Below, piece by piece: positions 35,511 through 63,920 of a DNA stretch of 64,000 nucleotides. The notes under the pieces are model-generated. The model had not been told where the DNA came from and searched no databases. It saw nothing but the letters and a program-made list of their open reading frames with translations. A program made the translations under genes and the position numbers. This DNA is from Bacteroidales bacterium. GTDB taxonomy: Bacteria; Bacteroidota; Bacteroidia; Bacteroidales; F082. How positions within the stretch are numbered: position 1 is the stretch's first letter; each line of letters begins with the position of its first letter. The stretch is taken from positions 1-64,000 of the forward strand of contig JAFXMK010000023.1 of the NCBI GenBank assembly GCA_017530365.1, read 5' to 3'.

Positions 35511-35545
35511 TTAACTATAAACTATGAACTTTAAACTTTAAACTT
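35511..35545 (-). repeat. Heptad tandem repeat at the M3 peptidase/patatin junction
   Basis: Read on the minus strand, five 7-base units GTTTAAA, GTTTAAA, GTTCATA, GTTTATA, GTTAAG fill the space between the TAA of the M3 peptidase gene and the ATG of the patatin gene; the stop codon touches the array. Confidence 0.85.
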
Positions 35546-37664
35546 ACTCCAGTCCTCTCGCCCTGAGATACGGCTCCTTCTCCGGATCCTGTCCGCGGAA
35601 CTTGCGGTACTGTACCATACCCTCGTCGTTGCCGCCGTCTTGCAGGCAGTATTTGCGGAAAGCAGCAGCCAGCTCGGGGTTGAAGAGGTTCCCGGAAGTC
35701 TTGAAATAGTTAAAGGCGTCCTTGTCGAGTACCTCGGCCCAAGTGTAACCATAATAGCCGGCGCTGTAACCGCCGTTGAAGATGTGTGAGAAATTGGTGG
35801 CACGGTAGCGAGGCAGGATCTCGGGCATCAGGTTGATGGCATCCATCTGCTGCTTCTCAAAGGCATCGACGTCAAGGTTGTCCACCTCGGTAAGTTCGTG
35901 GAACTTCATGTCGAGGATGGAAGCAGCGATGAGCTCGGTGGTGTTGAAGCCTTGGTTGAACAAAGCGCTGTTCTCGATCTTCTGGATGAGGCTGTCGGGC
36001 ATGACTTCGCCTGTTTGGTAATGCTTGGCGTACATGCGAATGACTTCAGGTTCTGCTGCCCAGTTCTCCATGATCTGCGAAGGCAGCTCCACGAAGTCGT
36101 GAGGCACGTTGCCGCAGGTACGGCTGTAGAGACCATCAGAGAAGAAGGCGTGCAGCGAGTGGCCGAACTCGTGCCACATAGTCTCGGTCTCGTCCCAGTT
36201 GAGCAAGGCGGGAACGCTGTCGGTGGCAGGGGTGAAGTTCATCACCAGGGAGACCAAAGGATATACCTTGTTGCCGTTGATGTCGTGGCCGGCTTCGCGG
36301 AAGCTGGTGCACCAGGCACCGCCGCTCTTCGAGGCACGTGGGTAGTAGTCGAGATAGAGGATGCCGAGGAAGTCGCCATTGGCTTCTTTCACTTCGTAGG
36401 TCTCCACGCCGGGATAATAGACGGGGATGGTGTTGTTTTGGGTAAAGGTCACGCCGTAGAGCTTGTTAGCTGCGTCGAACATGCCGTTGCGGACGTTATC
36501 GACAGCCAGGTAAGGCTTGATCTGGTTCTCGTCGAAGTCGTACTTGGCCTTGCGGAGCTTCTCGGCGTAATACCACCAATCCCATCCTTCGAGTTTGAAA
36601 TCGGCGCCTTCTGCCTTGGCGATGGCCTGCATCTCGGCGAGCTCTTTCTTGGCGAGCTCTTGGGCGGGGACGAAGATTTCTTCCAAGAACTGGTCAACGG
36701 TGGCGGCATCGTGGGCCATGTTGACAGACAGCACAAAGTTGGCGTGGTTGTCGTAACCCAACAGCTGGGCCTTTTGTTGTCTCAGCTTGAGCATCTCCTT
36801 GATGAGGTTCTTGTTGTCGTACTCGTTGCCGTTGTCGCCGCGATTGTAGTAGGCTTTGTACATCTTCTCACGCAGGTCGCGGTTGTCGGCATATTGCAGG
36901 AAGGGAATCAAGCTGGGCTTGCTGAGGGTGAACACCCATTTGCCTTCCATACCATCGGCTTTGGCTTGTTCGGCGGCGGCGTCAATGCTGCTTTGCGGCA
37001 GACCAGCGAGGTCGTCCTTGTTGTCGATGACGAGCTTGAAACCGCTGTTTTCCTTCAACAGATTATTTCCAAACTGTAGGCTCAAAGTCGAGAGTTGTTC
37101 GTTGATCTTGCTCAACTCAGCCTTTTTGTCGTCGGGCAACGCAGCACCGCTGCGGACGAAATCCTGATGGTATTTCTCCACCACGCGGATCTGCTGGTCG
37201 TCGAGGCCCATCTCATTGCGATGCTGATATACGTAGTCGATCTTCTCGAAGAGTTTCGGGTTCATCGCGATGGCATCGCCGTGCTTCGAGAGCATGGGCA
37301 TGACTTGTTCGGCCAAGGCCAGTAATTCATCATCAGAGTTGCATTCAAGGATGTTGAAGAACACGTTGCTGACGCGATCCAACGTCTCGCCCGACTTGTC
37401 GTAGGGGAGGATGGTGTTCTGGAAAGTGGGCGTCTCGGTGCTGTTGACGATGGCGTCGATTTCCTCGAGCTGTTCTTTCATGCCAGCCTCAAAAGCGGGC
37501 ATATAATTCTCGGTTTTGATCTTGTCGAAAGGCACCACCTTGAATGGCGTCTGGTATTCGGTCAGGAAAGGGTTCTCGTTGGTTTCTGTCTTCTTCTCGC
37601 TGCTGTTGCAGGAAACCAGCACGATGACGCTTAAAGCTATCATAGGAATGAATTTTTTAAACAT
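35544..37664 (-). CDS. dcp: M3-family metallopeptidase (peptidyl-dipeptidase Dcp-like) lipoprotein
   Basis: A 706-residue zinc peptidase. The HExxH motif is HEFGH at 498-502 in ETMWHEFGHSLHAFFS, with the third ligand glutamate expected about 25 residues on. The length and the full alpha-helical N-terminal half fit Dcp/oligopeptidase A. The N-terminus MFKKFIPMIALSVIVLVSC has a lipobox, so the enzyme is anchored in an outer compartment, unlike cytoplasmic E. coli Dcp; this is usual in Bacteroidales. It removes dipeptides from the C-terminus of short peptides. First gene of a two-gene operon from a divergent promoter. Confidence 0.9.
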   Translation of the reverse strand: MFKKFIPMIALSVIVLVSCNSSEKKTETNENPFLTEYQTPFKVVPFDKIKTENYMPAFEAGMKEQLEEIDAIVNSTETPTFQNTILPYDKSGETLDRVSNVFFNILECNSDDELLALAEQVMPMLSKHGDAIAMNPKLFEKIDYVYQHRNEMGLDDQQIRVVEKYHQDFVRSGAALPDDKKAELSKINEQLSTLSLQFGNNLLKENSGFKLVIDNKDDLAGLPQSSIDAAAEQAKADGMEGKWVFTLSKPSLIPFLQYADNRDLREKMYKAYYNRGDNGNEYDNKNLIKEMLKLRQQKAQLLGYDNHANFVLSVNMAHDAATVDQFLEEIFVPAQELAKKELAEMQAIAKAEGADFKLEGWDWWYYAEKLRKAKYDFDENQIKPYLAVDNVRNGMFDAANKLYGVTFTQNNTIPVYYPGVETYEVKEANGDFLGILYLDYYPRASKSGGAWCTSFREAGHDINGNKVYPLVSLVMNFTPATDSVPALLNWDETETMWHEFGHSLHAFFSDGLYSRTCGNVPHDFVELPSQIMENWAAEPEVIRMYAKHYQTGEVMPDSLIQKIENSALFNQGFNTTELIAASILDMKFHELTEVDNLDVDAFEKQQMDAINLMPEILPRYRATNFSHIFNGGYSAGYYGYTWAEVLDKDAFNYFKTSGNLFNPELAAAFRKYCLQDGGNDEGMVQYRKFRGQDPEKEPYLRARGLE

Positions 37665-37684
37665 GTAATTTGTTTTAAGATTTG

Positions 37685-37716
37685 TTGCCGCAAAGATACG
37701 AAATTATTATCTTTGC
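37685..37716 (+). promoter_or_regulatory. Promoter of the nfeD-SPFH operon
   Basis: Plus-strand TATCTTTGC at 37708-37716 with TTG at 37685-37687 (20-base spacer). Its -33 region overlaps the -7 region of the opposing promoter, so the two promoters cannot easily be occupied together. Confidence 0.8.
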
Positions 37717-37719
37717 AAA
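37690..37719 (-). promoter_or_regulatory. Promoter of the M3 peptidase-patatin operon
   Basis: Minus-strand TATCTTTGC at 37698-37690 is a consensus Bacteroidetes -7 element, with TTTG at 37719-37716 upstream (17-base spacer). It overlaps the promoter of the divergent nfeD-like gene. Confidence 0.8.
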
Positions 37720-37723
37720 TTGT

Positions 37724-37755
37724 CAACTGAACAACTGAATAACTGTACAACTTTA
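37724..37755 (+). repeat. Octad tandem repeat in the nfeD leader
   Basis: Four 8-base units CAACTGAA, CAACTGAA, TAACTGTA, CAACTTTA occupy the 5' leader between the promoter and ATG 37762, on the coding strand. Confidence 0.88.
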
Positions 37756-37761
37756 TTAATT

Positions 37762-38208
37762 ATGCAATTATATCAAATTTGGCTCATTGCCGCCCTCGCG
37801 TTGATTATTTTTGAGATCTTCTCGGCCACCTTTGGCGCCATTTGTTTTGCCATTGGTGCTGGATTCTCGGCGCTTGGCGCCGGCTTGGGTCTCAACCTGA
37901 CCTGGCAAATCGTCATTTTTGCCGTCGTTTCATTGCTCACCTTCATCTTCCTGCGTCCTTTCATGATGAAATTCCTCGACAGGAAGACGAAAGATGTGAA
38001 GACCAATGCCGATGCTTTAGTGGGCCGCCGGGCCGTGGTCTCGGAGCGTATCGATGCCTCCCAGCATACGGGTCGTGTGGCCGTTGACGGTGATGACTGG
38101 AAAGCGGTTTCCATGGATGGTTCCATTATTGAAAAAGGTACCGAAGTCGAAATCGTCAAACTCGACAGCATCATCCTCACCGTGAAGAAACTGAAAACTG
38201 AAAACTGA
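37762..38208 (+). CDS. NfeD-family membrane protein
   Basis: A 148-residue protein from ATG 37762 (MQLYQIWLIAALALII); the longer frame from TTG 37720 only translates the leader repeat. Two or three hydrophobic segments in the first 70 residues are followed by a soluble OB-fold domain (DALVGRRAVVSERID ... GDDWKAVSMDGSIIEKGTEVEIVKLDSIILTV), the short NfeD type. NfeD proteins partner stomatin/SPFH proteins in membrane microdomain organisation and quality control, and the SPFH gene follows. The last residues (KTEN) are encoded by a junction repeat. Confidence 0.9.
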   Translation: MQLYQIWLIAALALIIFEIFSATFGAICFAIGAGFSALGAGLGLNLTWQIVIFAVVSLLTFIFLRPFMMKFLDRKTKDVKTNADALVGRRAVVSERIDASQHTGRVAVDGDDWKAVSMDGSIIEKGTEVEIVKLDSIILTVKKLKTEN

Positions 38209-38230
38209 ACAACTGATCAACTAAAAACTA
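38191..38230 (+). repeat. 7/8-base tandem repeat at the nfeD/SPFH junction
   Basis: Units AACTGAA, AACTGAAC, AACTGATC, AACTAAA, AACTATA run through the nfeD stop codon (TGA 38206-38208) to just before the SPFH start at 38235. Confidence 0.85.
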
Positions 38231-38234
38231 TACC

Positions 38235-39194
38235 ATGAGTCCTCTTAACATCGTATTAACTGTCCTAGTAATCCTCGTCGTGATATATATCCTTCGGGGC
38301 ATCAAGATCGTCTCCCAGTCGGAGACCCTGATTGTTGAACGCCTTGGCAAGTACAACCGTACTTTGAACGCTGGCATTAACGTTATCCTGCCTATCATCG
38401 AAAAAGCCAAGGAAACCATTGCACGCCGCCAGGATGGTCGCTTGATCGCCACCTCACGCATCGACATGCGTGAGCAGGTCTATGACTTCGACAAGCAGAG
38501 CGTGATCACCAAGGATAACGTCATGACCGAGATCAACGCCTTGCTTTATTTTCAGATCGTCGATCCTATGAAGGCGGTCTATGAGATCCAGAACCTCCCC
38601 GTGGCCATTGAGAAGCTGACCCAAACTACGCTCCGTAACGTGGTGGGTGAGATGGAACTCGACGAGACCCTGACCTCGCGTGACACTATCAACTCGAAAC
38701 TCCGTAACGTGCTTGACGACGCCACCAACAAATGGGGTGTCAAGGTAAACCGCGTGGAGCTGCAGGACATCACGCCGCCCGAAAGCATCCGCCGTACCAT
38801 GGAGCTCCAGATGCAGGCTGAACGTAACCGTCGTGCCGAGATTTTGAAGGCTGAAGGTGAGAAGCAAGCCCAGATCCTGAACTCCGAAGGTGAGAAACAG
38901 GCCGAGATCAACGCCGCCGAAGCTGACAAGCAGGCCAATATCCTGAAGGCTGAGGGTGAAGCCCGCGCCAAGATCCTCCAAGCAGAAGCCGAAGCTACCG
39001 CCATCCGCAACATCACTGAAGCGGTTTCCAACGGTGGTGCCGACCCAGTGAACTACCTGCTTGCCGTGAAATACGTCGAAGCCCTGAAGGAGATCGCCTC
39101 TGGTCAGCAGAACAAGACCGTTTATCTGCCCTACGAAGCCACCAACATGCTGGGTTCCATCGGCGGAATCAAAGATCTGTTCCAATCAAAATGA
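38235..39194 (+). CDS. SPFH/band 7 protein (QmcA/stomatin-like)
   Basis: A 319-residue protein with one N-terminal membrane segment (about 4-20) followed by the SPFH core (IVSQSETLIVERLGKYNRTL, VYDFDKQSVITKDNVM, VNRVELQDITPP). A long Ala/Glu-rich coiled coil (AERNRRAEILKAEGEKQAQ onwards) and a hydrophobic C-terminal tail follow. It forms large membrane-bound oligomers with NfeD. Length and motifs match E. coli QmcA. Confidence 0.93.
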   Translation: MSPLNIVLTVLVILVVIYILRGIKIVSQSETLIVERLGKYNRTLNAGINVILPIIEKAKETIARRQDGRLIATSRIDMREQVYDFDKQSVITKDNVMTEINALLYFQIVDPMKAVYEIQNLPVAIEKLTQTTLRNVVGEMELDETLTSRDTINSKLRNVLDDATNKWGVKVNRVELQDITPPESIRRTMELQMQAERNRRAEILKAEGEKQAQILNSEGEKQAEINAAEADKQANILKAEGEARAKILQAEAEATAIRNITEAVSNGGADPVNYLLAVKYVEALKEIASGQQNKTVYLPYEATNMLGSIGGIKDLFQSK

Positions 39195-39253
39195 CAAAAT
39201 GTCATAAAATCTCTGCTATTATTTCCTAAAATAAGACAAATTGTCATAAAATC
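39193..39253. repeat. Two near-identical 19-bp repeats with internal palindromes
   Basis: GACAAAATGTCATAAAATC (39193-39211) and GACAAATTGTCATAAAATC (39235-39253) differ at one base and start 42 bases apart. Each contains an inverted repeat (TGACA-AAA-TGTCA and GACAA-A-TTGTC). They lie after the SPFH stop and upstream of Hsp20; regulator binding is possible but unproven. Confidence 0.7.
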
Positions 39254-39258
39254 ATCAT

Positions 39259-39286
39259 AAAAGCGGCCCTAAAAGCCGCTTTTTTG
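39259..39286 (+). terminator. Intrinsic terminator after the SPFH gene
   Basis: Stem AAAAGCGGC/GCCGCTTTT with a 7-base loop followed by further T residues; it closes the nfeD-SPFH operon. Confidence 0.88.
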
Positions 39287-39330
39287 TTTTGGCCCACTAT
39301 TTGACTTGAGCGGATGTGTCGTTGTTCAAC

Positions 39331-39369
39331 CAACTGAACAACTGACCAACTTCCAACTGAACAACTAAA
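39331..39369 (+). repeat. Octad tandem repeat upstream of hsp20
   Basis: Units CAACTGAA, CAACTGAC, CAACTTC, CAACTGAA, CAACTAAA. The array ends 22 bases before ATG 39392. A purine-rich TAGGAGA follows the repeat and may serve as a ribosome-binding site, unusual for this genome. Confidence 0.88.
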
Positions 39370-39391
39370 TTAAAAATAGGAGATTAAAACT

Positions 39392-42232: not shown

Positions 42233-42262
42233 AGGCCAGTCTTAGGACTGGCCTCTTCTCTT
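42233..42262. terminator. Terminator between convergent gate-domain and M16 genes
   Basis: Stem GGCCAGTC/GACTGGCC at 42234-42253 with a 4-base loop (TTAG), followed on the plus strand by a T/C-rich tract and preceded by AAAAGAAAA, so it can act in both directions. Confidence 0.82.
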
Positions 42263-42271
42263 CTTACTTCT

Positions 42272-45130
42272 TTATTCTTTAAAAATATTCTTGTACTTGA
42301 GCTTGGTTACCTCTCCGTATTTGGCGAGGTCCTTGGCTTTGACGCTCTTCGGACCCGACATCATGATAATGACGGGACGGTCCTTGATCATGCGGTTGTA
42401 GAAGCCGACCACATCTTTGAACTCGGCCTTACGGATGATCTCAGTGACTTCCGCTCTCGGGTCATGGTCGTAGCCTTTCCACATCCAATACCTCACCGAG
42501 CTGGGCTTGTTGCGGAAGGTGATGTAGTTGCTGGCTCTCGACTTGAGAAGGGCCTCCTTCGAAGCGTTGAACTTCTCGACACGCTCGGGCATATCCTTGA
42601 TCAGGCTGCTAAAGGCATCGATGCCGTCGAAGGTCTTGTCGCCCTGGGTGCCCAAGAAGCCGTATAGGTAGCCGGGCTTGCGCTCCAGGTCGTCGTAGCT
42701 GTAACTGGCGTAGGCGGTGTAGCCCAGCGAACGGAACTCGCGGATCTCCTGAAACACGATGGAGTACATGTCGGTGCCGAAATACTTGCTGAACAGGCCG
42801 GCCATGGCTTCGTCTTCAAGGCTCAGCTTCTCGCCGGGTACGTAGAACCAGATGTTGCTCTGGCGGAACTTCTTGTTCGGGGCAAAGAACACTTGGGGCT
42901 TGGTGTATTGCTTCTCCACCTGCACTGTTTCCTCGCCCTTGAGGGGCTTCAATGGAAGGATGAAGTGGTTTTTGATCGATTGGGCTAACACATCGGGATA
43001 TTGGTTGCCGGAATAGGTGACGAATCCGTCGTATTGCAAGGCCTTGGCGATCTTGGCAAGGAACTCGTTGCCGCTGCGTTTCGACCATTCCTTGATGCTG
43101 CTATGATCCAGGTAGGTGGACTTGTCGCCGTACAAGGCGTAGGCGCGGACGGCACGGGCCCAGGTGGAGGCGTCTTCTTTCTGGGTCTGGATGCCCATCT
43201 TCGCCCCATCGGCCATGGTCTTGATCTGGCTCTCGTCGTTCGAGGGGTTGTAGAGTTTCTCATGGCAGAGGTTCAACAGCTTCTCGAGGTCTGCCTCGAA
43301 TCCAGTGATCGTCACATGGAAATAGTTTTCGTCAGGGTAGGTGTAGATGCTTGCGCCCATTTTCTGGAGCTCAAGGGCGAACTCCTGGAAAGGCTTGGTC
43401 TCGGTGCCTTGCAGGGAGAGATATTCGCTGGCAATCTCCAAGTCGGGGTCGTCGAGGGTGCCGTAGTTGAAGTAGAAATTTAGCACAAATACGTCGTTGG
43501 CGGGGTTGATGGCCGAATAGAGCTTGAAGCCGTCGCTGATGTTGGTGATCTTCACGTCTTCGCCGAACTTGATGACTTGTGGGGTGACCTCGGGCACTTC
43601 CTCGGCTTCGATCATCTTGGCAAAGTCGGATTTCATGTTGGTGTTTTTGGCCTCAAGAGGCTTCCAGTTAGGCTTCTCCACCTTGTCCTTGTCGGGGAAG
43701 CCCATCTTGGAACGGATGTCCAGATAGTCGTTGCCAAAATATTTGTTGGCGATGGCGACCACTTCCTCCTTGGTGATCTTCTTGATGCGCTCGGTTTCGG
43801 CGAGGAACTCCTCATAACTCTGTCCGGTTTGCTCCATCTCGAGGAAGAGGTTGGCGAGTTTGTTGAGGTCTTCGGTAGCGCGGAGCCGGCCCATCAGCTG
43901 GTCCATACGCACGGCTTCGAACAGGTCGTCGCTGAACTCACCGCGTTTGAGCTGTTCGAGGCATTCAAACACCAAGGCTTCGGCCTCTTCGTGCGACTGT
44001 CCCAGCAGCTTGGGGATGATCAGCATCAGGTTGGCGCCTTGGTCCTCAAGCGAGAGGGGCATGAGCATGGCGGCCATCAGCTTGCCGTCGAGGGTCAGCT
44101 TGTCAACCAAGCCGGTCTCGCCGTTGAAGAAGATGCTGCAAGCCATCGACAGCGGCACCAGGTCGGGGTCGGAGTTCTTGATGCCGGGGAAGATCAAGGC
44201 ACCCATCTTGATAGGGGTCATGCGGACCTCTTTGACGGTGGGACCGTTGAACTTGGGCAGCGTATAAGTGGGCTGCTTCGGGAGCTCGCCCTTGCGCCAG
44301 GTGCCGAACTTCTCCGCAATCATCGGCTCCGTCTCCTCGATGTTGAAGTCGCCGACCAGGATCAGGGTCATGTTGTTGGCTACATAGTAGGTGTTGTAGA
44401 ACTCGCGCATCTTGGCGGGTTGCGGGTTCTTCAGGTGCTCGGTGTAGCCGATCACAGGACGGCCGTAGGGATGCTCGCCGAAGGTCTCCTTGAACATGTA
44501 TTCCTGGAAGGCGTTGATGGGACTGTCGCCGTACATGTTCTTCTCTTCATAGACCGCTTCCAACTCGCTCTGAAACAGGCGGAACACTGGGTTGCGGAAG
44601 CGTTCCACATACACGTCCATCCACTTGGAGAGCTGGTTCGAGGGGAAGGTGTTGTAGTACATGGTCTGGTCGTAGCTGGTTCCTGCGTTGAGGCCCTTGC
44701 CGCCCATCTGGGTAAGGATGACATCGACTTCATTCGGGATGGCGTAGTCGGTGCTGGCGATGCTCAGCTCGTTGATCTTCATCTGGATGGCCTGGCGGGC
44801 TGCGGGGTCGGTGGTCTCATGCAATTTGTCGTACATCATGCTGATGCTGTCGAGATACACCTTCTCTTTCTCCCAGTCGATGGTGCCGATGCGGTCGGTG
44901 CCTTTGAACATGATATGCTCGAAGTAGTGGGCCATGCCGGTAGCATCCAAGGGATCGTTCTTGCTGCCAGCATGGACATACACGGCGCCGTATATCTCTG
45001 GTTGGTCATGGTTCTCGCACAGCACGACCTTCAGGCCGTTGTCGAGGTGGTAGGTCTTGGTCTTAAGCCCCGTTTGGGCAGAAACGATGCCGCAGAACAG
45101 TAGGGCAATGAGGAAGAGAATTTTTTTCAT
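42272..45130 (-). CDS. M16-family zinc metalloprotease (pitrilysin-like), periplasmic
   Basis: A 952-residue exported two-module peptidase. A signal peptide (MKKILFLIALLFCGIVSAQ) precedes the first M16 module with the inverted zinc motif HYFEH at 68-72 and the downstream ELEAVYEEKNM that supplies the third ligand. The second module (from ~510) has no such motif and is the usual inactive half. It degrades or processes peptides. It is the last gene of the ABC-GntR operon, 29 bases after the GntR stop with a tandem repeat in that space. Whether it works with the ABC transporter is unknown. Confidence 0.9.
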   Translation of the reverse strand: MKKILFLIALLFCGIVSAQTGLKTKTYHLDNGLKVVLCENHDQPEIYGAVYVHAGSKNDPLDATGMAHYFEHIMFKGTDRIGTIDWEKEKVYLDSISMMYDKLHETTDPAARQAIQMKINELSIASTDYAIPNEVDVILTQMGGKGLNAGTSYDQTMYYNTFPSNQLSKWMDVYVERFRNPVFRLFQSELEAVYEEKNMYGDSPINAFQEYMFKETFGEHPYGRPVIGYTEHLKNPQPAKMREFYNTYYVANNMTLILVGDFNIEETEPMIAEKFGTWRKGELPKQPTYTLPKFNGPTVKEVRMTPIKMGALIFPGIKNSDPDLVPLSMACSIFFNGETGLVDKLTLDGKLMAAMLMPLSLEDQGANLMLIIPKLLGQSHEEAEALVFECLEQLKRGEFSDDLFEAVRMDQLMGRLRATEDLNKLANLFLEMEQTGQSYEEFLAETERIKKITKEEVVAIANKYFGNDYLDIRSKMGFPDKDKVEKPNWKPLEAKNTNMKSDFAKMIEAEEVPEVTPQVIKFGEDVKITNISDGFKLYSAINPANDVFVLNFYFNYGTLDDPDLEIASEYLSLQGTETKPFQEFALELQKMGASIYTYPDENYFHVTITGFEADLEKLLNLCHEKLYNPSNDESQIKTMADGAKMGIQTQKEDASTWARAVRAYALYGDKSTYLDHSSIKEWSKRSGNEFLAKIAKALQYDGFVTYSGNQYPDVLAQSIKNHFILPLKPLKGEETVQVEKQYTKPQVFFAPNKKFRQSNIWFYVPGEKLSLEDEAMAGLFSKYFGTDMYSIVFQEIREFRSLGYTAYASYSYDDLERKPGYLYGFLGTQGDKTFDGIDAFSSLIKDMPERVEKFNASKEALLKSRASNYITFRNKPSSVRYWMWKGYDHDPRAEVTEIIRKAEFKDVVGFYNRMIKDRPVIIMMSGPKSVKAKDLAKYGEVTKLKYKNIFKE

Positions 45131-45167
45131 AGTTGTTCAGTTGTTCAGTTTGTGGTTGTTCAGTTAG
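45131..45167 (-). repeat. Tandem repeat at the GntR/M16 junction
   Basis: On the minus strand: AACTGAAC, AACCACAA, ACTGAAC, AACTGAAC, AACT, then the M16 ATG. The GntR stop codon TGA is the first TGA of the array. Confidence 0.88.
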
Positions 45168-47935: not shown

Positions 47936-47980
47936 AACTTGTTGATTTGTTGATTGTTTAATTGTTTAACTGTTTGATTA
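47936..47980 (-). repeat. Octad tandem repeat in the leader of the ABC operon
   Basis: On the minus strand: TCAAACAG, TTAAACAA, TTAAACAA, TCAACAAA, TCAACAAG, then TT and the ATG. It fills the leader between the operator and the start codon. Confidence 0.88.
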
Positions 47981-47983
47981 TTT

Positions 47984-48009
47984 CAGTGTATTAGTGAATT
48001 AGTACACTG
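47984..48009 (-). promoter_or_regulatory. YtrA-like GntR operator
   Basis: Inverted repeat AGTGTA (47985-47990), 12-base spacer, TACACT (48003-48008), extended by one C/G pair outside. It begins right behind the -7 element, so a bound repressor would block initiation. It resembles the AGTGTA-spacer-TACACT site reported for B. subtilis YtrA (recalled, not looked up). Confidence 0.75.
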
Positions 48010-48039: not shown

Positions 48040-48070
48040 GAAAAAAGTGATTTTTTTTGAAAAAAACTTC

Positions 48071-49132
48071 TTACTTCTTGCTAACGCCTTCTAACTTCTG
48101 ATAATGACACAAAAGGATCCCTTCTGAATCTTTCCTATGCAGATGCATTGCGCCGCCAAGGCAATTTTTGTAAACCTTACAATCTTTGCAGATGCCTGTC
48201 CTCATCCAGTTGCGGTCGCGAAAGAGTTGAAAACGGTTTTCCCATACGTCTAAGAAATCATCTTGATAGATGTTGCCTTGGGCAAAGCGGCGGTCGATGT
48301 TGGGGCAGGCGGAGATGGAGCCATCGACGAGGATGGAGCCGATGGTGATGCCGGCACGACAGAAGTAGTACCAGTCGCGGACCTTGCGCTCATAGGGTCC
48401 GACGTAGGCTTCGCAGCTGAACTTGGCGTCGATCTTGCCTTCCTTGCGGGTGGCGACGATGAAGTCCATCAGTTGTTTGAACTGCTCGTTGTTGAGTTGC
48501 AGATTCGGGTCGTTGGCGGCACGCCCGATGGGCTCGATAGTGAAGAAACGCCAGGCCTTCACATGGTGTTCGACAAGCAACTGTTTTAATTCGTCTAATT
48601 CACCGATGTTCATTGGACTGACACAGGTCACGATATCATAGGCAAGAGGCTTCGTTTCATTGGCCACCAGGTCGATCGCCTGAAGGGCGTGGTCGAAGCT
48701 GCCTTGGCGCTTGCGAAAGGCGTCGTGTGTCTCTCGTAATCCATCCAAGCTGAAGGTGACACTGCAAAGCCCAGCTGCCATCAGCTCCTTGTGTCTTGCT
48801 TCATCGTATGCCCAGCCATTGCTGACAATACCCCAAGGAAAACCATGCCTGCGGAGCTGTCGCCCGCAATCGGCGAGGTCCTTGCGCACCAATGGCTCGC
48901 CACCAGTAATGACGACCAATATGGAGTTCCGTTTGAACTTGGTCTCAAGGGGCTCGATGGCTTTGAGAAAGTCTTCAAAAGGCATGTCTTTGAACAAGGA
49001 AGATGCCGTGCAATCTGAACCGCAGTGCTGGCAATTCAGGTTGCAGCGCTGGGTGCATTCCCAAAAGAGATAGTTCAACTCATGGAGTTGGGTCTCTTTT
49101 TTCCGGAAATAGTTATGGAAGGCCTGAAGCAT
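48071..49132 (-). CDS. Radical SAM/SPASM enzyme of an rSAM/lipoprotein pair
   Basis: A 353-residue radical SAM protein. The [4Fe-4S]-SAM motif is C30-x3-C34-x2-C37 in CTQRCNLNCQHC, followed by TGGEP. The C-terminal cysteine-rich SPASM segment (GICKDCKVYKNCLGG ... ILLCHYQ) would hold auxiliary clusters, as in peptide-modifying maturases. The gene directly upstream encodes a tiny lipoprotein. This arrangement matches the Bacteroidetes system annotated in TIGRFAMs as rSAM/lipoprotein (TIGR04133/TIGR04134 by recall), whose chemistry is not established. It may modify the lipoprotein before export. Confidence 0.88.
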   Translation of the reverse strand: MLQAFHNYFRKKETQLHELNYLFWECTQRCNLNCQHCGSDCTASSLFKDMPFEDFLKAIEPLETKFKRNSILVVITGGEPLVRKDLADCGRQLRRHGFPWGIVSNGWAYDEARHKELMAAGLCSVTFSLDGLRETHDAFRKRQGSFDHALQAIDLVANETKPLAYDIVTCVSPMNIGELDELKQLLVEHHVKAWRFFTIEPIGRAANDPNLQLNNEQFKQLMDFIVATRKEGKIDAKFSCEAYVGPYERKVRDWYYFCRAGITIGSILVDGSISACPNIDRRFAQGNIYQDDFLDVWENRFQLFRDRNWMRTGICKDCKVYKNCLGGAMHLHRKDSEGILLCHYQKLEGVSKK

Positions 49133-54269: not shown

Positions 54270-54306
54270 TGGGATTTAAAGATTTAATATTCAATAATTT
54301 AAAGAT
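54270..54306 (-). repeat. 7/8-base tandem repeat at the NUDIX/Acd junction
   Basis: On the minus strand: TCTTTAAA, TTATTGAA, TATTAAA, TCTTTAAA, TCCC, from just after the NUDIX TAA to near the Acd ATG. Confidence 0.78.
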
Positions 54307-54308
54307 TA

Positions 54309-56154: not shown

Positions 56155-57114
56155 ATGAAAAGACTCGTTCTCGCCCTGCTATTAGTGGCTTCTTTCCAGC
56201 TATCTGCCCAAGAGATGCTCGTGGGCTCTTACAATATACGTTACAAGAACTGGAACGACAGTGTCCAAGGTAATGTCTGGGCCAAACGCTGCCAAGTGAT
56301 TTGCGACCAGGTGAACTTCATGGCCCCCGAGATCTTCGGGACGCAAGAGGTGCTTTATGGGCAGCTTCAAGACATGAAAAAGGCCCTTGATGGCTATGAT
56401 TACATCGGCATTGGACGTGATGACGGAAAACTAGGCGGCGAACATGAAGCCATCTTTTATAAGAAAGACAAGCTGAGGCTCCTTGACCATGGCGATTTTT
56501 GGCTCAGCGAGACGCCCGACAAGCCTAGCTTGGGCTGGGATGCTGCTTGCATCCGCATCTGCACTTGGGGAAAGTTTTGTGTCAAAGGGCAGAAGCAACG
56601 ACATGGACTGTTTAACCTTCGCAGGAAAGAACCTCAACAGGTGTTCTACTTCTTTAACCTTCACATGGATCACGTGGGCGTGGTGGCACGTCGTGAAGCA
56701 GCCAAGCTGGTGGTGGCCAAGGTGCGCGAGATCGCCAAGGACGCTCCCGTGTTCATCACCGGTGACTTTAATGTAGATCAAGATAACGAGATTTATACCA
56801 TCTTCACGAAGTCTGGGATCTTAAAAGACTCGTATGATGCAGCGCGCATCCGCTTTGCGGAGAACGGCACCTTCAATGCCTTCAAGACGGAGTACTATAC
56901 GACCAGCCGCATCGACCATGTCTTTGTCTCTCCCGAAATGAAGGTGGAATCCTACGGCGTGCTCACCAATAGCTACTGGACGCCCGACGAAACGGAAGAA
57001 ACGCTTAAATCTGCCGACGCTCCACAGGAGATCTCGTTCGACAATTATGTCAGGAGAAATCCTTCGGACCATTATCCGGTGTTCGTGAAGGTAAGAGTTG
57101 GGAGTGAGGAATGA
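56155..57114 (+). CDS. Secreted endonuclease/exonuclease/phosphatase-family protein
   Basis: A 319-residue protein from ATG 56155 (MKRLVLALLLVASFQLSAQ, a signal peptide); a longer frame reaching into the MFS gene is rejected. Domain landmarks in order: GSYNIRY, EIFGTQEV (metal glutamate), FNLHMDHVGVVARREAAKLV, ITGDFNVDQDNEIY, SRIDHVF and NPSDHYPVFVKV. Bacteroidetes relatives act on nucleic acids, phospholipids or sugar phosphates in the periplasm; the substrate is open. The last residues (GSEE) and stop lie in a heptad repeat. Confidence 0.87.
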   Translation: MKRLVLALLLVASFQLSAQEMLVGSYNIRYKNWNDSVQGNVWAKRCQVICDQVNFMAPEIFGTQEVLYGQLQDMKKALDGYDYIGIGRDDGKLGGEHEAIFYKKDKLRLLDHGDFWLSETPDKPSLGWDAACIRICTWGKFCVKGQKQRHGLFNLRRKEPQQVFYFFNLHMDHVGVVARREAAKLVVAKVREIAKDAPVFITGDFNVDQDNEIYTIFTKSGILKDSYDAARIRFAENGTFNAFKTEYYTTSRIDHVFVSPEMKVESYGVLTNSYWTPDETEETLKSADAPQEISFDNYVRRNPSDHYPVFVKVRVGSEE

Positions 57115-57128
57115 GGAGTGAGGAATAC
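57101..57128 (+). repeat. Perfect-register heptad repeat at the 3' end of the EEP gene
   Basis: Four units GGAGTGA, GGAATGA, GGAGTGA, GGAATAC. The EEP stop (TGA 57112-57114) is inside. Here there is no downstream start on this strand, an exception to the pattern elsewhere. Confidence 0.85.
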
Positions 57129-57141
57129 TACCCCATAGGGG

Positions 57142-58032
57142 TTAAAGCTCGGTAGAATCGGTAGGGCGTTTTTGTCTGATTGAGAATAACGTTTGAAGAA
57201 CAACCGACAGGATGATTAGCACAATGCCGATCACAAATGAATAATTCAACTCCTTGTACTCGCTGAAGATAAACATGGAGAGGATGATGCTATACACGGG
57301 CTCCAGGTTATAGGTCAAGTTGACGGTGAAGGCGGAGATCTTCTGCAATACAATGATTTGCAACAGGCAAAGGCCGATGGTGCAAACCACCACCATGAAA
57401 GCCAAATAGGGGTAGTCCAGACCGACAGGATAGAGCCTGCCGAGGGGGATGAAGGCGTTGTACAAGGGGAGGAGGCATGTGAGTCCGATAAGGCCGCCGA
57501 TCATCTCCCAAAGCAACATGTTCTTTGGCTCATAATGCTTGCCGACCCGTTGGTTGGCGATGGCGAAGAGCGCATAGATGGCCGAGGAGACAACGCCTAG
57601 GATGATGCCCAACCGGTAACGCGAGTCGAACTGGAAAATCAGATAAATGCCGAGAATGGTCAGCAAGCTGAAGAGGAACTCGCGTCCTGAAAACCGATGC
57701 TTGTTGATGATTGGCTCGAACAAGGCGGTGAAAAACCCCACTAAGGAGAAACACACCACGCCGATCGACACATTAGAGGCCTTGATGCTGGCGTAGAAGA
57801 ATACCCAATGCAATGCCAGCAGCAGACCGACACCACCCATGGGTAGCAAGTTGTTCAGTTTGTAGTTGTTCAGTTGTTTAGTTATCACTAGATAAAGCCA
57901 CATCAACACTGCTGCCGTGGCCATCCGCCACCATACCAAGACGGCGGAATCCAAGGTGATGAGCCGCCCTAGCACGCCAGTGAAGCCGGCGATGAATACG
58001 GAAAGATGCAGCAACAGGTAGTCTTTTTTCAT
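57142..58032 (-). CDS. EamA/DMT-family transporter with in-frame junction repeat
   Basis: A 296-residue protein with ten hydrophobic segments and two EamA repeats (PS: SVFIAGFTGVLGRLITLDSAVLVWWR and GIILGVVSSAIYALFAIANQ start the halves). It probably moves small metabolites or amino acids out of the cell. Residues 51-63, in the loop before GVGLLLALHWVFFYASIK, are encoded by the AACTGAAC-type repeat (TKQLNNYKLNNLL), which looks like a later insertion. The start overlaps the methyltransferase stop (ATGA). Last gene of a three-gene operon. Confidence 0.86.
   Translation of the reverse strand: MKKDYLLLHLSVFIAGFTGVLGRLITLDSAVLVWWRMATAAVLMWLYLVITKQLNNYKLNNLLPMGGVGLLLALHWVFFYASIKASNVSIGVVCFSLVGFFTALFEPIINKHRFSGREFLFSLLTILGIYLIFQFDSRYRLGIILGVVSSAIYALFAIANQRVGKHYEPKNMLLWEMIGGLIGLTCLLPLYNAFIPLGRLYPVGLDYPYLAFMVVVCTIGLCLLQIIVLQKISAFTVNLTYNLEPVYSIILSMFIFSEYKELNYSFVIGIVLIILSVVLQTLFSIRQKRPTDSTEL
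57847..57888 (-). repeat. AACTGAAC-type repeat inside an EamA coding region
   Basis: On the minus strand: AACTAAA, CAACTGAA, CAACTACA, AACTGAA, CAACTTGC. It is the same sequence type and orientation as the junction repeats at 37724, 38191, 39331, 45131 and 58801 but is translated in frame. An in-frame ATG follows 9 bases after it. Confidence 0.88.
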
Positions 58033-58800: not shown

Positions 58801-58832
58801 ATAGTTGGAAGTTGTTCAGTTATTCAGTTTTC
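58801..58832 (-). repeat. Tandem repeat at the EamA/TrmH junction
   Basis: On the minus strand: AAACTGAA, TAACTGAA, CAACTTC, CAACTATC, then the TrmH-family ATG. The EamA stop TAA is inside the second unit. Confidence 0.87.
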
Positions 58833-59736: not shown

Positions 59737-59757
59737 CGTTTTTTGGTGTAATTATTG

Positions 59758-59766
59758 TAAGTTTGC
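59758..59766 (+). promoter_or_regulatory. -7 element of the paralogous lipoprotein pair
   Basis: TAAGTTTGC, fitting TAnnTTTG, 41 bases before ATG 59808. The -33 element is not clear. Confidence 0.55.
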
Positions 59767-59807
59767 ATGACAATTGGAAGTATTTTTAATCATAAAACTA
59801 TAAGACA

Positions 59808-60302: not shown

Positions 60303-60304
60303 CA

Positions 60305-60856
60305 ATGAAAAGGTTATTCAGCATAGCATGCGCCATCATTGCTGTCGTCTTCATGGCTTCCTGTGCCAAGGAAGGCCCCATGGGTCCCATGGGTCCAATG
60401 GGACCCACCGGTCCGCAAGGCCCTGCTGGTAACGATGGCTATGTGAATGTCGCCTCCACAACCATCACGGTTGTTCCTGATGACTGGTACTGGGATGAGA
60501 CTTCATGGCGCGTTGATTTCAGTTATGACGCTGTCACTTCTGACATCTACAACAGCGGAGTGGTACTGGTATATATGGAAAGCAATGATACGTGGCGCCA
60601 GATCCCGATGACCTTCTATTACTCCGATTACGACAATCAAGGCAATTTGATCTACTGCTCCTCTTCATTGGAGACTTCGTTCTACGAAGGCGGCGTGAGT
60701 GTCTTCTGGACGGAGAACGATTTCTATGACGGCTATCGGCCCGAAGAGCATCGCTTTCGTTTGGTAGCCATCGCCGCAGGCTATTATGCCGCTCATCCTG
60801 AATTGGATCTCAGCAGTTACGAGATGGTCAAAGAGACTTTCAACCTGGCTGATTGA
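60305..60856 (+). CDS. Lipoprotein with short collagen-like stalk
   Basis: A 183-residue lipoprotein. Lipobox MASC (Cys20), then seven Gly-x-y triplets at about 24-45 (GPMGPMGPMGPTGPQGPAG followed by NDG), then the same ~130-residue domain as the preceding gene. Gly-Pro-x triplets can form a collagen triple helix, so the protein may trimerise as a short stalk with the domain displayed at the tip (inference). The paralogue upstream lacks the triplets. Two bases separate the genes. Confidence 0.82.
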   Translation: MKRLFSIACAIIAVVFMASCAKEGPMGPMGPMGPTGPQGPAGNDGYVNVASTTITVVPDDWYWDETSWRVDFSYDAVTSDIYNSGVVLVYMESNDTWRQIPMTFYYSDYDNQGNLIYCSSSLETSFYEGGVSVFWTENDFYDGYRPEEHRFRLVAIAAGYYAAHPELDLSSYEMVKETFNLAD

Positions 60857-60865
60857 TGCCAGGTT
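60842..60865. terminator. Hairpin between convergent genes
   Basis: A perfect 8-bp stem AACCTGGC/GCCAGGTT with an 8-base loop spans the stop codon of the collagen-like lipoprotein and the stop of the antiporter gene. No T-run follows on either strand, so termination would need help; it may instead protect 3' ends. Confidence 0.45.
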
Positions 60866-61811
60866 ATTGCGCCATGATCGTGTAGATCATGAATCCTGAA
60901 AAGGCAAGAAGCATCAAAAAACCCTCAAAACGGGAGAGCTTCCTGCCTTTTCCCGTAAATACAAACAGCAACATCAGGGCATTCGCGAAGAACAGAATGC
61001 CAAGGGTGATGTTCAACTTGGAGTCGAATTGCAGTGGCGTGATCAGGCTGCTGATGCCTAATACCACAAAGATGTTCAGGATGTTGGAGCCTAAGACGTT
61101 GCCGATGGCGATACCGGCGTTTTTCTTGGTGGCTGCCACGATGGAAGTGATCAATTCGGGCAACGAAGTCGCCATGGCAACCACGGTCAAGCCGATCATG
61201 GACTCGCTCATGCCCCATGCCTTGGCAATGATTTGAGCATTGTTGGAAACCAATTCTCCTCCAACATACAGCCCGGCGATGCCGATGACCAAAAATAGGA
61301 TGGTCTTCCACCATGGCATCGGGATCTGAACAGCCTCCACCTCCGTGCTGGGCGACTCGTTTTTCTTCATCGTCAGGAAGAGATATCCTGCTGCGCAAAG
61401 CAACAAAACGATGCCTTCAATCCAGCTGACGGTAAGCCCGTTGCCTGTGAAGTTGGCGAACACGAACAGGGCCAGCGTGGCAAGAAAACCTACGGGAATA
61501 TCACGCCTGATGGAAATCCTGCTAACGTCGATGGGATAGATCAAGGAGGCGACACCGAGGATGAGCAGGATGTTCATGATGTTGCTGCCCACGATGTTGC
61601 CGATGGCCAGCCCAGAGCTGCCTTTGGCACAGGAGAAGATGTTGATGATCAACTCGGGTAGGGAAGTGCCGAAGGCCACAATGGTCAAACCGATGATCAA
61701 AGGTGACAGCTTCGCCCTGATGCCGACACTTGTGGCGCCATCAACCAGCCAGTCCGCCCCGAGGATTAGCACAACGAATCCGACTATTAATAAAAGGATA
61801 GGGATGATCAT
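60864..61811 (-). CDS. Calcium/sodium antiporter, CaCA family (YrbG-like)
   Basis: A 315-residue membrane protein with ten hydrophobic segments and two inverted alpha-repeats: GTSLPELIINIFSCAKGSSG/LAIGNIVGSNIMNILLILG and ATSLPELITSIVAATKKNAG/IAIGNVLGSNILNIFVVLG. These hold the cation-binding acidic residues. It exchanges Ca2+ for Na+ or H+ across the inner membrane. ATGA overlap places it downstream of yggS. Confidence 0.93.
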   Translation of the reverse strand: MIIPILLLIVGFVVLILGADWLVDGATSVGIRAKLSPLIIGLTIVAFGTSLPELIINIFSCAKGSSGLAIGNIVGSNIMNILLILGVASLIYPIDVSRISIRRDIPVGFLATLALFVFANFTGNGLTVSWIEGIVLLLCAAGYLFLTMKKNESPSTEVEAVQIPMPWWKTILFLVIGIAGLYVGGELVSNNAQIIAKAWGMSESMIGLTVVAMATSLPELITSIVAATKKNAGIAIGNVLGSNILNIFVVLGISSLITPLQFDSKLNITLGILFFANALMLLFVFTGKGRKLSRFEGFLMLLAFSGFMIYTIMAQ

Positions 61812-62479
61812 ACGTTGTAATTTCTTGCTCCAAAAATCTTACTTCCCACTCTGATCAAGGTAGCTCCTTCTTCGATGGCAATCGGGTAATCGTCCGACAT
61901 TCCCATGGAAATCTCCTTAAATTGGGGCTGGCCAGCAAAGTAATCGGTTTTCAGGGTCTCAAAAATCTCCTTCAGGTGTTTGAACTCCTTGCGGATCTCG
62001 GCTTCGTCATCGGTGAAGGTGGCCATGCCCATCACACCACAGAGGCGCACGTTCTGCATCTGCCTGAACACCTCTGAGTCCAGCAATTGTCGCGCTTCTT
62101 CCATGTCAAGGCCGAACTTGGTCTCCTCTTGGGCAATGTGGAACTGCAACAGGCAATCCACCACACGGTCGTGTTTCTTGGCTTCCTTATTGACGGCTTC
62201 GAGCAAGTTAGCGGAATCGATACTGTGGATGAGTGTTACGAAAGGGATGATGTACTTGATCTTGTTGGTCTGAAGATGTCCGATGAAATGCCATTGGATG
62301 TCTTTTGGCAAGACTTCGTGCTTGTCGCGCATCTCCAAAGCGTGGTTCTCTCCAAAAATGCGTTGGCCGGCATCGTAGGCCTCTTGCAGGTCGCTAACAG
62401 GCTTGGTTTTACTGACGGCCACCAAAGTGACGCTGGAAGGTATGGTAGCCTTGATTCTCTCAAGATTCTCCTTTATCAT
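61808..62479 (-). CDS. YggS/PROSC-family PLP-binding protein
   Basis: A 223-residue single-domain PLP homeostasis protein with an alanine-racemase-like barrel. The PLP lysine lies in VAVSKTKPVSDLQEAYDAG; FGENHALEMRDKHEVLP, WHFIGHLQTNKIKYI and CGVMGMATFTDDEAEIRKEF follow; SMGMSDDYPIAIEEGATLIRVGSKIFG closes the phosphate site. No enzymatic activity is established for the family; it buffers and delivers PLP. Confidence 0.94.
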   Translation of the reverse strand: MIKENLERIKATIPSSVTLVAVSKTKPVSDLQEAYDAGQRIFGENHALEMRDKHEVLPKDIQWHFIGHLQTNKIKYIIPFVTLIHSIDSANLLEAVNKEAKKHDRVVDCLLQFHIAQEETKFGLDMEEARQLLDSEVFRQMQNVRLCGVMGMATFTDDEAEIRKEFKHLKEIFETLKTDYFAGQPQFKEISMGMSDDYPIAIEEGATLIRVGSKIFGARNYNV

Positions 62480-62493
62480 AATCCTAAAATTAG

Positions 62494-62527
62494 TTGTGCA
62501 AAATTACCAAATATTTCGTATTTTTGC
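62494..62527 (+). promoter_or_regulatory. Promoter of ffh
   Basis: TATTTTTGC at 62519-62527 with TTG at 62494-62496 (22-base spacer); ATG at 62549. Confidence 0.7.
62498..62506 (-). promoter_or_regulatory. -7 element of the yggS-antiporter operon
   Basis: Minus-strand TAATTTTGC, 18 bases before the yggS ATG; divergent from the ffh promoter. Confidence 0.65.
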
Positions 62528-62548
62528 ACCCAATTATTTTGAAAGATT

Positions 62549-63883
62549 ATGTTTGAAGGTTTAAGTGAAAAATTAGAACGCTCGTTCAAGGTCCTGAAAG
62601 GACAAGGATATATCACTGAAGTCAACGTGGCCGACACCATGAAGGAGATCCGCCGCGCTTTGCTCGATGCTGACGTCAGCTACAAGATCGCCAAGGATGT
62701 CACCAATAATATCAAAGAGAAGGCGTTGGGTCAACAGATTCTGACCTCGGTGAAGCCGGGCGACATGATGGTGAAAATTGTCCACGACGAGTTGGCCGAA
62801 CTGATGGGTGGCGAACATGTCGATATCAACCTGAAAGGCCAGCCGAGCATTATCCTGATCGCCGGTCTGCAAGGTTCTGGTAAGACCACTTTTTCGGCCA
62901 AGTTAGCCAACTACCTGAAGCGCAAGAAGAGCAAACAGGTGCTGCTGGTAGCTGGTGACGTGTATCGTCCTGCCGCTATCGACCAATTGAAGGTCTTGGG
63001 CCAACAGGTCGAAGTGGAGGTCTATAGCGAAGACGGCAACAAGAATCCCGTGGAGATTGCACAACATGCCATCGAGCATGCCAAGGCACAGAACAAGAGC
63101 GTGGTCATCATCGATACCGCTGGCCGTCTGGCTGTTGACGAGGAGATGATGAACGAGATCGCCAAGATTAAGGAAACCGTGCATCCTCATGAGACCTTGT
63201 TTGTGGTCGATGCCATGACGGGTCAGGATGCCGTGAATACCGCCAAGGCCTTCAACGATCGCCTCGACTTCGATGGCGTGGTGCTCACCAAGTTGGACGG
63301 CGACACCCGCGGTGGTGCTGCCCTGACTATCCGTACTGTGGTGGAGAAGCCGATCAAATTCGTCGGTATCGGTGAGAAGATGGACGCACTCGACGTGTTC
63401 TATCCGAAACGTATGGCCGACCGTATCCTCGGCATGGGTGATATCGTCTCCCTTGTGGAACGCGCTCAGGAACAGTTTGACGAGGAGGAGGCACGTAAGC
63501 TGCAACGCAAACTTGCCAAGAACGAATTCAACTATAACGACTTCCTGAAGCAGATCCAGCAGATCAAGAAGATGGGTAACATCAAGGATCTGGCTAGCAT
63601 GATCCCAGGTATGGACAAAGCCATGAAAGGGGAGGAAATTGACGATGATGCCTTCAAGAGTATCGAGGCCATCATCTATTCGATGACGCCGCAGGAACGT
63701 GAGAATCCTTCGTTGTTGAACGGTACCCGCCGCAAACGTATCGCCATGGGTAGCGGCACCTCCATCGTCGAGGTTAACCGTCTTGTGAAACAGTTCGAGG
63801 AGACCGCCAAAATGATGCGCATGATGACCACAGGCGGTGGCAAGAAGATCATGAGGATGGCGAATGCAATGAGGAGAAGATGA
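62549..63883 (+). CDS. ffh: Signal recognition particle protein Ffh
   Basis: A 444-residue SRP54 GTPase: N-domain (1-90), G-domain with P-loop GLQGSGKTT at 106-114, DTAGR, TKLDGDTRGGAAL and GxGEKMDALDVF, and a Met-rich M-domain from ~325 with TPQERENPSLLNGTRRKRIAMGSG, which binds 4.5S RNA and signal peptides. It delivers nascent membrane proteins to FtsY. No 4.5S RNA gene was recognised nearby. Single-gene start from its own promoter, folD follows. Confidence 0.97.
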   Translation: MFEGLSEKLERSFKVLKGQGYITEVNVADTMKEIRRALLDADVSYKIAKDVTNNIKEKALGQQILTSVKPGDMMVKIVHDELAELMGGEHVDINLKGQPSIILIAGLQGSGKTTFSAKLANYLKRKKSKQVLLVAGDVYRPAAIDQLKVLGQQVEVEVYSEDGNKNPVEIAQHAIEHAKAQNKSVVIIDTAGRLAVDEEMMNEIAKIKETVHPHETLFVVDAMTGQDAVNTAKAFNDRLDFDGVVLTKLDGDTRGGAALTIRTVVEKPIKFVGIGEKMDALDVFYPKRMADRILGMGDIVSLVERAQEQFDEEEARKLQRKLAKNEFNYNDFLKQIQQIKKMGNIKDLASMIPGMDKAMKGEEIDDDAFKSIEAIIYSMTPQERENPSLLNGTRRKRIAMGSGTSIVEVNRLVKQFEETAKMMRMMTTGGGKKIMRMANAMRRR

Positions 63884-63887
63884 TGTA

Positions 63888-63920
63888 GAGATAAAAGATA
63901 AGAGATAAAAAATAAAAGTT
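63888..63920 (+). repeat. Heptad tandem repeat at the ffh/folD junction
   Basis: Four 7-base units GAGATAA, AAGATAA, GAGATAA, AAAATAA, then AAGTT and the folD ATG at 63921. It starts 4 bases after the ffh stop. Confidence 0.88.

Follow-up and report, generated by a model that had tools for sequence, protein, structure and literature searches.

Period-7 and period-8 tandem arrays at gene ends and leaders in a Bacteroidales genome, with units that differ between related genomes

The window analysed here, bases 1–64000 of contig 17 of a 2.67 Mb, 50-contig Bacteroidales assembly, carries from position 35513 onwards a series of degenerate tandem arrays with units of 7 or 8 nt, most of them at the junctions between genes. 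The nearest named relatives of the source genome (G000) are uncultured Bacteroidales, mostly ruminant-derived (RUG and RGIG assemblies, bacterium F082 and Candidatus Limimorpha), and its genus is probably F082 of the GTDB. We followed the arrays through 834 kb of the source genome (about 31%, the own sample) and through a sample of a sister genome (G072), which is 94% identical to it over the 15 kb compared. The two samples are not independent, sampled loci carry L numbers, and genes were called by a simple codon-score script that gives approximate start positions.

On the minus strand, 7-mers of the form AGTTTAW (35513–35545) extend from the stop of an M3 peptidase gene (35544) to the start of a patatin-like gene (35509); read as AACT-type units, this array runs in reverse relative to its gene. 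The leader of an nfeD-like gene is filled by the 8-mer AACTGAAC (37724–37752, plus strand) from the −7 promoter element to the ATG at 37762, and the sister carries a CTTCTTA 7-mer array there. A mixed array of AACTGAA (7 nt) and AACTGAAC (8 nt) units (38188–38229, plus) crosses the nfeD-like stop (38208) and reaches the start of a Band_7 gene (38235), and AACTGAAC recurs in the leader of an HSP20 gene (39331–39366, plus; ATG 39392). Minus-strand copies of AACTGAAC at 45131–45165 connect the stop of a GntR-type gene (45160) with the start of an M16 peptidase gene (45130), the sister array being 15 nt shorter. At 58810–58829 (minus) they lie between an upstream stop (58820) and the start of a SpoU methylase gene (58799), where the poor local alignment places ACGGCGAA/TTTTACGAA-type units in the sister. 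The same unit is also used in frame, at 57849–57883 (minus), where it encodes QLNNYKLNN within an EamA-type gene and is identical in the sister.

Other units occupy the remaining sites. An 8-mer array of the AATYAACA/AGTTAAAC type (47939–48003, minus) lies 5′ of an ABC transporter gene (start 47935), and the sister sequence differs there. The 8-mer AATCTTTA (54273–54307, minus), kept as an array in the sister, runs from the stop of a NUDIX gene (54309) to the start (54265) of a gene with ATP-grasp, Succ_CoA_lig and CoA-binding domains. GGAGTGA/GGAATGA 7-mers (57101–57126, plus; 7 nt shorter in the sister) cover the stop (57114) of the gene at 56215–57114, which is convergent with the EamA gene, and AGATAAR 7-mers (63889–63918, plus) run from the stop of an SRP54 gene (63883) to an ATG at 63921; here the sister has REP-like palindromes, in a poor local alignment. 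Two weak arrays complete the set: CTTCTTA/TAAGAAG units between convergent genes at 42260–42281 (no strand assigned; one 7-mer more in the sister) and a degraded row of GAAGNNA-type units covering the 3′ end of a radical SAM gene at 48067–48098 (minus; stop 48071), absent from the sister. Both resemble GAAGNNA arrays in decay; a first-pass annotation of the window had suspected decayed members of the array class in purine-rich 3′ ends at 42262–42290 and 48061–48110. Arrays were found at all other positions that it had named. Phase-variation contingency loci vary in length within populations at surface genes; the neighbours of the arrays in the window include housekeeping genes as well as transporters.

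In window positions 1–35512 no period-7 or period-8 array scores 9 or more. The earlier description had a 29-kb glycan block free of arrays; Tandem Repeats Finder at its lowest threshold reports two-copy 7- and 8-mers at 4150 and 4462. The proposal of a genome-wide class was supported by a unit-agnostic scan, with chance expectation taken from order-3 Markov simulation; the own sample holds 147 arrays. In 461 kb of noncoding sequence (the window plus L001–L020) there were 34 arrays of period 7 and 9 of period 8, against 0.0 in the simulations; periods 4–6 and 9–13 gave 0 or 1 each, and period 14, the double of 7, gave 22. With coding sequence included, the 834 kb held 108 arrays of period 7 and 20 of period 8, and 0, 0, 10, 13, 3, 0 and 11 at periods 4, 5, 6, 9, 10, 11 and 12, respectively. 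The sister gave 99 and 27 at periods 7 and 8, and 60 kb of E. coli K-12 gave zero arrays at periods 4–12. Among other Bacteroidales (13 loci, 233 kb) period 7 was found 10 times, against 0–2 at the remaining periods. At loci of the same genus (45 loci, 877 kb) periods 6 and 12 (47 and 58 arrays) rival period 7 (48), with 6 arrays at period 8; 84 of 108 period-6/12 calls, an unmerged count, encode tyrosine/glycine-rich runs. Repeats of period 6, 18 and 24 also occur in a predicted coding region at window 32351–32433, which is probably the same gene as the one with these runs.

About a dozen unit families recur across unrelated loci of the source genome. The 7-nt families are GGAGTKA, GAAGNNA, AGATAAR, GGTTARA, AACTRNC, AGTTTAW, AACGGRA and AAAGTTG; the 8-nt families are AACTGAAC, TTTRAATC and AATYAACA. 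Within the own sample AACTGAAC makes up 16 of the 147 arrays and the 7-mer AACTGAW 2. G with almost no C, or the reverse, is found in 82 of 148 arrays, compared with 6% of random noncoding segments; since units tend to carry only one of the two bases, the arrays have little scope for self-pairing. The main units (GGAGTKA, GAAGNNA, AGATAAR, GGTTARA and AACTGAAC) lack GGG, and a few rarer variants contain CCC or GGG. A G-quadruplex basis was rejected since GGG is missing from the main units. A 14-nt superunit was also discarded: lag tests on AGATAAR and GGAGTKA variants gave small effects that were inconsistent between own and sister samples.

The first-pass annotation had described the arrays as running up to the start codon of the next gene. 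This is true of a part of them: 67 of the 147 lie near both a stop and a start and 15 near a start only, while 32 are at a stop and more than 60 nt from any start, 31 are inside genes away from both ends and 2 are elsewhere; the array at 57101 sits on a stop between convergent genes. Its observation that arrays often contain the upstream stop was confirmed, 99 of the 147 abutting or overlapping a gene stop. Arrays occupy 74 of 249 codirectional, 15 of 54 convergent and 5 of 76 divergent gaps (convergent versus divergent, Fisher p = 0.001), and in the sister 76 of 294, 14 of 42 and 9 of 68 (p = 0.016). Because 99 of the 147 arrays are stop-anchored and divergent gaps are depleted, the gene end is their main anchor, and the view of them as mainly start-codon or translation-coupling elements is not supported. 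Codirectional gaps of 15–150 nt contain an array in 66 of 201 cases, and the 11 array-bearing gaps of at least 120 nt, where the array is closer to the start in 5, leave the anchor undecided. The anchor differs with unit length: 7-mers are mostly stop-linked and 8-mers start-linked, with AACTGAAC near a start in 14 of its 16 arrays. Of the 31 mid-gene arrays some probably reflect mis-called open reading frames (ORFs); others are free of stops, for example AACTGCC at L002:17279.

In the own sample, 41 of 618 ORFs terminate at a stop codon that belongs to the array. The ORF closes in units 1 to 5 in 17, 13, 8, 2 and 1 cases, and in 16, 19, 10, 7 and 2 of 54 cases in the sister, roughly as expected if arrays of random phase overlie gene ends and supply the stop. 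Seeding from a native stop codon is not supported, closure being roughly even over units 1–3.

Arrays at stops are strongly oriented. The coding strand has more stop frames than the reverse strand in 56 and fewer in 12, and it is purine-rich in 75 and pyrimidine-rich in 14. The stop-frame bias is strongest in arrays that overlap the stop (38:5) and weaker in those wholly after it (18:7). The common orientation claimed at first pass is a bias and not a uniform rule, the array at 35513 being reversed. As neither 7 nor 8 is a multiple of 3, three units that each hold a single stop triplet suffice to close every frame; stops in several frames, also part of the first description, extend to all three frames on the coding strand of 48 of the 99 stop-anchored arrays and on the reverse strand of 18 (sister, 52 versus 22 of 109). 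Where a unit has stops only on its forward strand, it is used almost exclusively in that direction (forward to reverse, AGATAAR 13:0, AACTGAAC 13:2, and GAAGNNA, whose GAAGTAA form has stops, 22:1); units with stops on both strands are divided more evenly (GGTTARA 5:5; GGAGTKA, which has them on both in the T form, 14:5). Purine content alone fails as an orientation rule for AACTGAAC (5 of 8 purines, 13:2) and for own-sample GGTTARA, and remains a co-predictor. The leader family AATCAACA shows the opposite arrangement, with stops on the reverse strand only.

These counts would fit a role as backup stop codons, in which arrays would be selected to close three frames and block read-through into the next gene; the excess of all-frame stops on the coding strand in both samples is what such selection would produce. 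For arrays beginning at least 3 nt past the stop, however, the bias is 12:7 (p = 0.36), and the units AACTGCC, AACGGAA and GAAGACA are used despite a coding strand free of stops. We consider selection for backup stops very unlikely to explain the arrays.

Comparison with the sister indicated that arrays change both in length and in unit. Of 136 testable own arrays 48 could be placed, the other 88 having no ortholog in the sister sample, and 13 of the 48 were dropped for flanks under 85% or long intervals. Among the 35 pairs kept, 24 have the same family; 9 of these show no change in length, and in the 15 that do, the difference is a multiple of 7 or 8 in 8 cases. The automatic class of different families (7 of 35) was unreliable, since by eye 2 have truly unrelated units and 5 are relatives or cut intervals, and one of the 4 rows without an array (L030:17976) is a degenerate relative. 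An unrelated array stands in the sister at window 37723 and L017:1686 among the kept rows, and in dropped rows clearly at L030:16795 and L016:18778 and weakly at L016:6888. For the arrays at window 37724 and L017:1687 the sister unit is of a family that is also common at other sites of that genome. At both L031:8786 and window 58810, AACTGAAC in the source genome corresponds to the same ACGGCGAA/TTTTACGAA-type replacement in the sister.

The junction following the M3 peptidase stop gives an array score in 8 of 65 loci, 5 of them among the 12 closest, with a different unit each time; the score limit of 8 used for this junction and for the nfeD leader is lax, being reached by 256 of 2000 random 70-nt noncoding pieces of the source genome and by 12 of 2000 shuffled ones.

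Unit families behave as dialects of individual genomes. In a survey of 80 genomes of the genus, in which hits on both strands and overlapping places were counted and hits are not equivalent to arrays, AGATAAR was found 170 times in G099, 103 in G072, 96 in G155, 88 in the source genome and 62 in G126, and was absent from 54 of the 80. ATTYAAA gave 113 hits in G118 and 82 in G168, against 1 in the source genome and 0 in G072. AACTGAAC gave 116 in the source genome, 111 in G102 and 85 in G168 (zero in 21 of 80), and GGAGTKA 219 in G072, 120 in the source genome, 117 in G152 and 95 in G169 (zero in 32 of 80); for GGAGTKA the reversed pattern is no neutral control, since it reads as a member of the same family. 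In G097 the reversed control of the AACTGAAC search matched 180 times (111 + 69), and this genome seems to have its own TCAACAAG 8-mer dialect. An inverted pair of GGAGTKA arrays occurs at L031:974–1033, and relative to L089:15923–16009 in G072 the loop between them is inverted.

On an M3 peptidase tree of 40 of the 80 genomes, picked for a complete gene and a spread of counts and, as a single gene tree, a weak guide, abundance (at least 20 hits) requires a minimum of 8 changes for AACTGAAC, 8 for ATTYAAA, 4 for AGATAAR and 9 for GGAGTKA. Shuffles reach values as low in 7, 6 and 12 of 300 for the first three, indicating some clustering, and in 112 of 300 for GGAGTKA (shuffled 9.7), indicating none.

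Slippage had been proposed at first pass as the source of expansion, and length comparison between relatives, suggested then, yielded changes in unit steps. A purely local version, in which each array arose by itself and shared units reflect convergence through composition and the filters on orientation and structure, would also fit the reuse of the same families by distant lineages, and according to PMC4679880, Mrazek (2007) found heptamers to be the commonest 5–11 nt repeats in most genomes surveyed and proposed polymerase slippage. Slippage alone hardly explains shared units and dialects: one unit with the same degenerate position is found at dozens of loci in one genome and at zero in many relatives, and at sites such as window 37724 and L017:1687 the unit changed to one whose family the sister uses widely at other loci. 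We regard local slippage by itself as distinctly unlikely.

We also considered whether the arrays are carried by a mobile element of REP or MITE type. When arrays were masked, 10 of 133 array groups shared flanks; of the 12 pairs, 10 reflect a single REP-like palindrome, which is present at six loci, and the remaining 2 consist of adjacent groups of one locus. A mobile carrier was rejected, because flanks are not shared between loci. The palindrome, CCCCGTAGGGGTTAAAGCTCGGTAGA, adjoins arrays at window 57127–57150 (directly after the 57101 array), L006:1662, L007:6499, L014:8746, L016:18778 and L027:10593; it also occurs at L237, and in the sister it stands where the source genome has the 63889 array. 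Another dispersed palindrome (GCATCCC..GGGATGCTAGCTCT) lies at gene junctions of several species, in the L030:16850 region and after the M3 stop in L112 and L115.

The nfeD-like gene was found by tblastn in loci fetched from 18 relatives, giving 19 species with the window. In 19 of 19 a Bacteroidota −7 element (TANNTTTG) lies 17–54 nt before the ATG. In the window, and in 10 of the 11 species nearest to it (at least 86% identity in the neighbouring M3 protein), the stretch between this element and the ATG reaches an array score. Its units are AACTGAAC in the window, CTTCTTA in the sister and G155, AATTYAAC in G124, TTCTTAA in G099, TAACTCC-type in G152 and TTAACTC-type in the others. The other seven species (79–83%) have a short leader of 17–28 nt with no array after the −7 element. 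The score at L121 comes from a palindrome upstream of that element and not from a leader array. Over the own sample, a −7 element lies within 45 nt upstream of 4 of 15 leader-only arrays and 2 of 99 stop-anchored ones (p = 0.003).

Such leaders may be selected as unstructured, Shine-Dalgarno-independent ribosome landing or standby sites and, between genes, as reinitiation spacers, in a lineage whose ribosomes ignore the Shine-Dalgarno sequence; in PMC9976891, Bacteroidia ribosomes are reported to sequester the anti-Shine-Dalgarno sequence. The first-pass idea of an unstructured leader agrees with the predicted folding of start regions, −2.29 kcal/mol with an array (60 regions) and −6.09 without (530), with a GC-adjusted effect of +3.33 ± 0.46. 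The start linkage and forward bias of AACTGAAC and the conserved position of the nfeD array, with varying units, argue in the same direction. Any such low-complexity sequence would give low structure, the comparison being with array-free regions and not with shuffled arrays; the stop is the anchor of most arrays, 32 of 147 lack a nearby start, divergent gaps, which hold starts only, are depleted, and seven species do without an array in the nfeD leader. Selection for translation elements is doubtful as the general explanation. Arrays may contribute positively to translation, the 8-mer leader class being the likeliest to do so.

The fixed period and genome-specific units could also point to a dedicated writer, a telomerase-like enzyme whose short internal template would add 7–8 nt repeats at breaks or junctions and set the dialect. 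Inverted pairs such as L019:17652 and L003:5299/5350, and others that lie between codirectional genes (for example L002:1693), would be compatible with it, and the source genome has two reverse transcriptase (RVT_1) hits (G000:C3:54751–55380 and G000:C19:45369–45962). Many inverted pairs, with 7-mers pointing inward and 8-mers outward, may fit gene orientation as well. Several families coexist within one genome. Of 21 genomes searched for RVT_1, only 12 gave a hit, and several array-bearing ones (G124, G137) gave none. We rejected reverse transcriptase as the array writer, as its presence does not track arrays in these 21 genomes, and regard a dedicated writer as highly improbable.

The explanation we favour, at about an even level of belief, is that the arrays grow by slippage, spread in trans and fill tolerated space at gene ends and leaders, where stop-codon and RNA-structure constraints filter them. 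Replication slippage would lengthen and shorten arrays, and units would be copied between arrays by short-tract ectopic gene conversion or template switching, so that a dialect spreads through one genome. Arrays would survive in unconstrained DNA, from a stop (or across it) to the next start and sometimes from the −7 promoter element to the ATG. There the coding strand would have to close the upstream frame and the transcript would have to stay unstructured, any effect on translation being tolerated or mildly useful and not the cause of their existence. Period specificity, gene-end anchoring, the roughly random phase in which arrays supply stops, stop-linked orientation, dialects, unit change at the same site, unshared flanks and the one-sided G or C content support this explanation.

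Several observations weigh against it. No donor–recipient tract was identified for the proposed copying in trans, and the occurrence of the same families in distant lineages points to convergence or horizontal spread, which the model leaves unexplained. The stop rule fits the sister less well (GAAGNNA 15:7, GGTTARA 12:3), and leader-only arrays also favour more stop frames (10:1 own, 11:3 sister), which a filter on closing ORFs does not explain. The class of arrays overlapping a stop is partly defined by the array containing one. In a joint logistic model of orientation both predictors count, with purine content (own 0.52 [0.30, 0.90]; sister 0.43) and stop frames (own 0.69 [0.35, 1.18]; sister 0.45) of similar predictive value, and the stop filter is therefore not isolated. 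A stronger version of trans copying, in which an active process rewrites junctions in the genome dialect through undescribed machinery whose geometry sets the 7–8 nt step, seems unlikely.

Dispersed heptamers have precedents. The cyanobacterial STRR sequences are heptamer repeats. As told in PMC4679880 and PMC4692102, they and the long simple sequence repeats of Mrazek share with our arrays the preference for period 7 and the proposal of slippage, and a polymerase-footprint idea for the number seven is traced to Mrazek (2007); gene-end anchoring, stop-linked orientation and dialect turnover set the present arrays apart from that account. Rehm et al. (2015; PMC4692102) describe GGGNATC heptamers of unknown function dispersed in Xanthomonas and Nostoc genomes, which favour aligned ORFs, are rare between divergent ones, lie within 50 bp of a stop on the coding strand, form inverted pairs, and in relatives mostly keep their position while lengths change. 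Period 7, noncoding dispersal, placement between aligned ORFs, nearness to a sense-strand stop, scarcity in divergent gaps, inverted pairs and length changes at mostly retained positions are shared with our arrays. Whereas that system has one G-rich, quadruplex-forming unit type with four copies preferred, the present arrays comprise about a dozen units per genome, GGG being absent from the sequence of the main ones, with genome dialects, unit change at orthologous sites and a start-tied 8-mer class.

MacGregor (2015; PMC4679880) describes TAACTGA repeats in Beggiatoaceae, cyanobacteria and five Bacteroidetes; in BOGUAY they are mostly forward and just 5′ of start codons, and between two close Cyanothece strains indels are mostly in 7-nt steps. 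The AACTGA core and the start linkage (14/16) and forward bias (13:2) of AACTGAAC resemble this. In contrast to BOGUAY, where one exact, start-anchored heptamer predominates, the core here is mostly 8 nt long (AACTGAAC) and is one of many families, 7-mer families are mostly stop-anchored, and TAACTGA is not dominant (AACTGAW, 2 of 147). Our literature searches, with subscription journals mostly outside their coverage, found no paper on heptamer dialects in Bacteroidales. Relative to the available parts of these two papers and as far as we searched, the new elements are the large number of units in a single genome, the dialects, the replacement of one unit by another at a fixed site, the supply of stop codons by arrays and the split between 7-mers and 8-mers.

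The preference for seven letters, and the presence of one heptamer at many gene ends of one genome, are left open in PMC4692102 and PMC4679880. With multiple families, sister dialects and junctions whose units change, these Bacteroidales lend themselves to separating slippage, trans copying and selection in a natural setting. For annotation, the 41 of 618 called ORFs with array-supplied stops have array-made C-termini as well, and some 5′ leaders consist entirely of array. If junctions are actively rewritten, many genes would have their stop codons, C-termini and 5′ leaders periodically overwritten by one short sequence.

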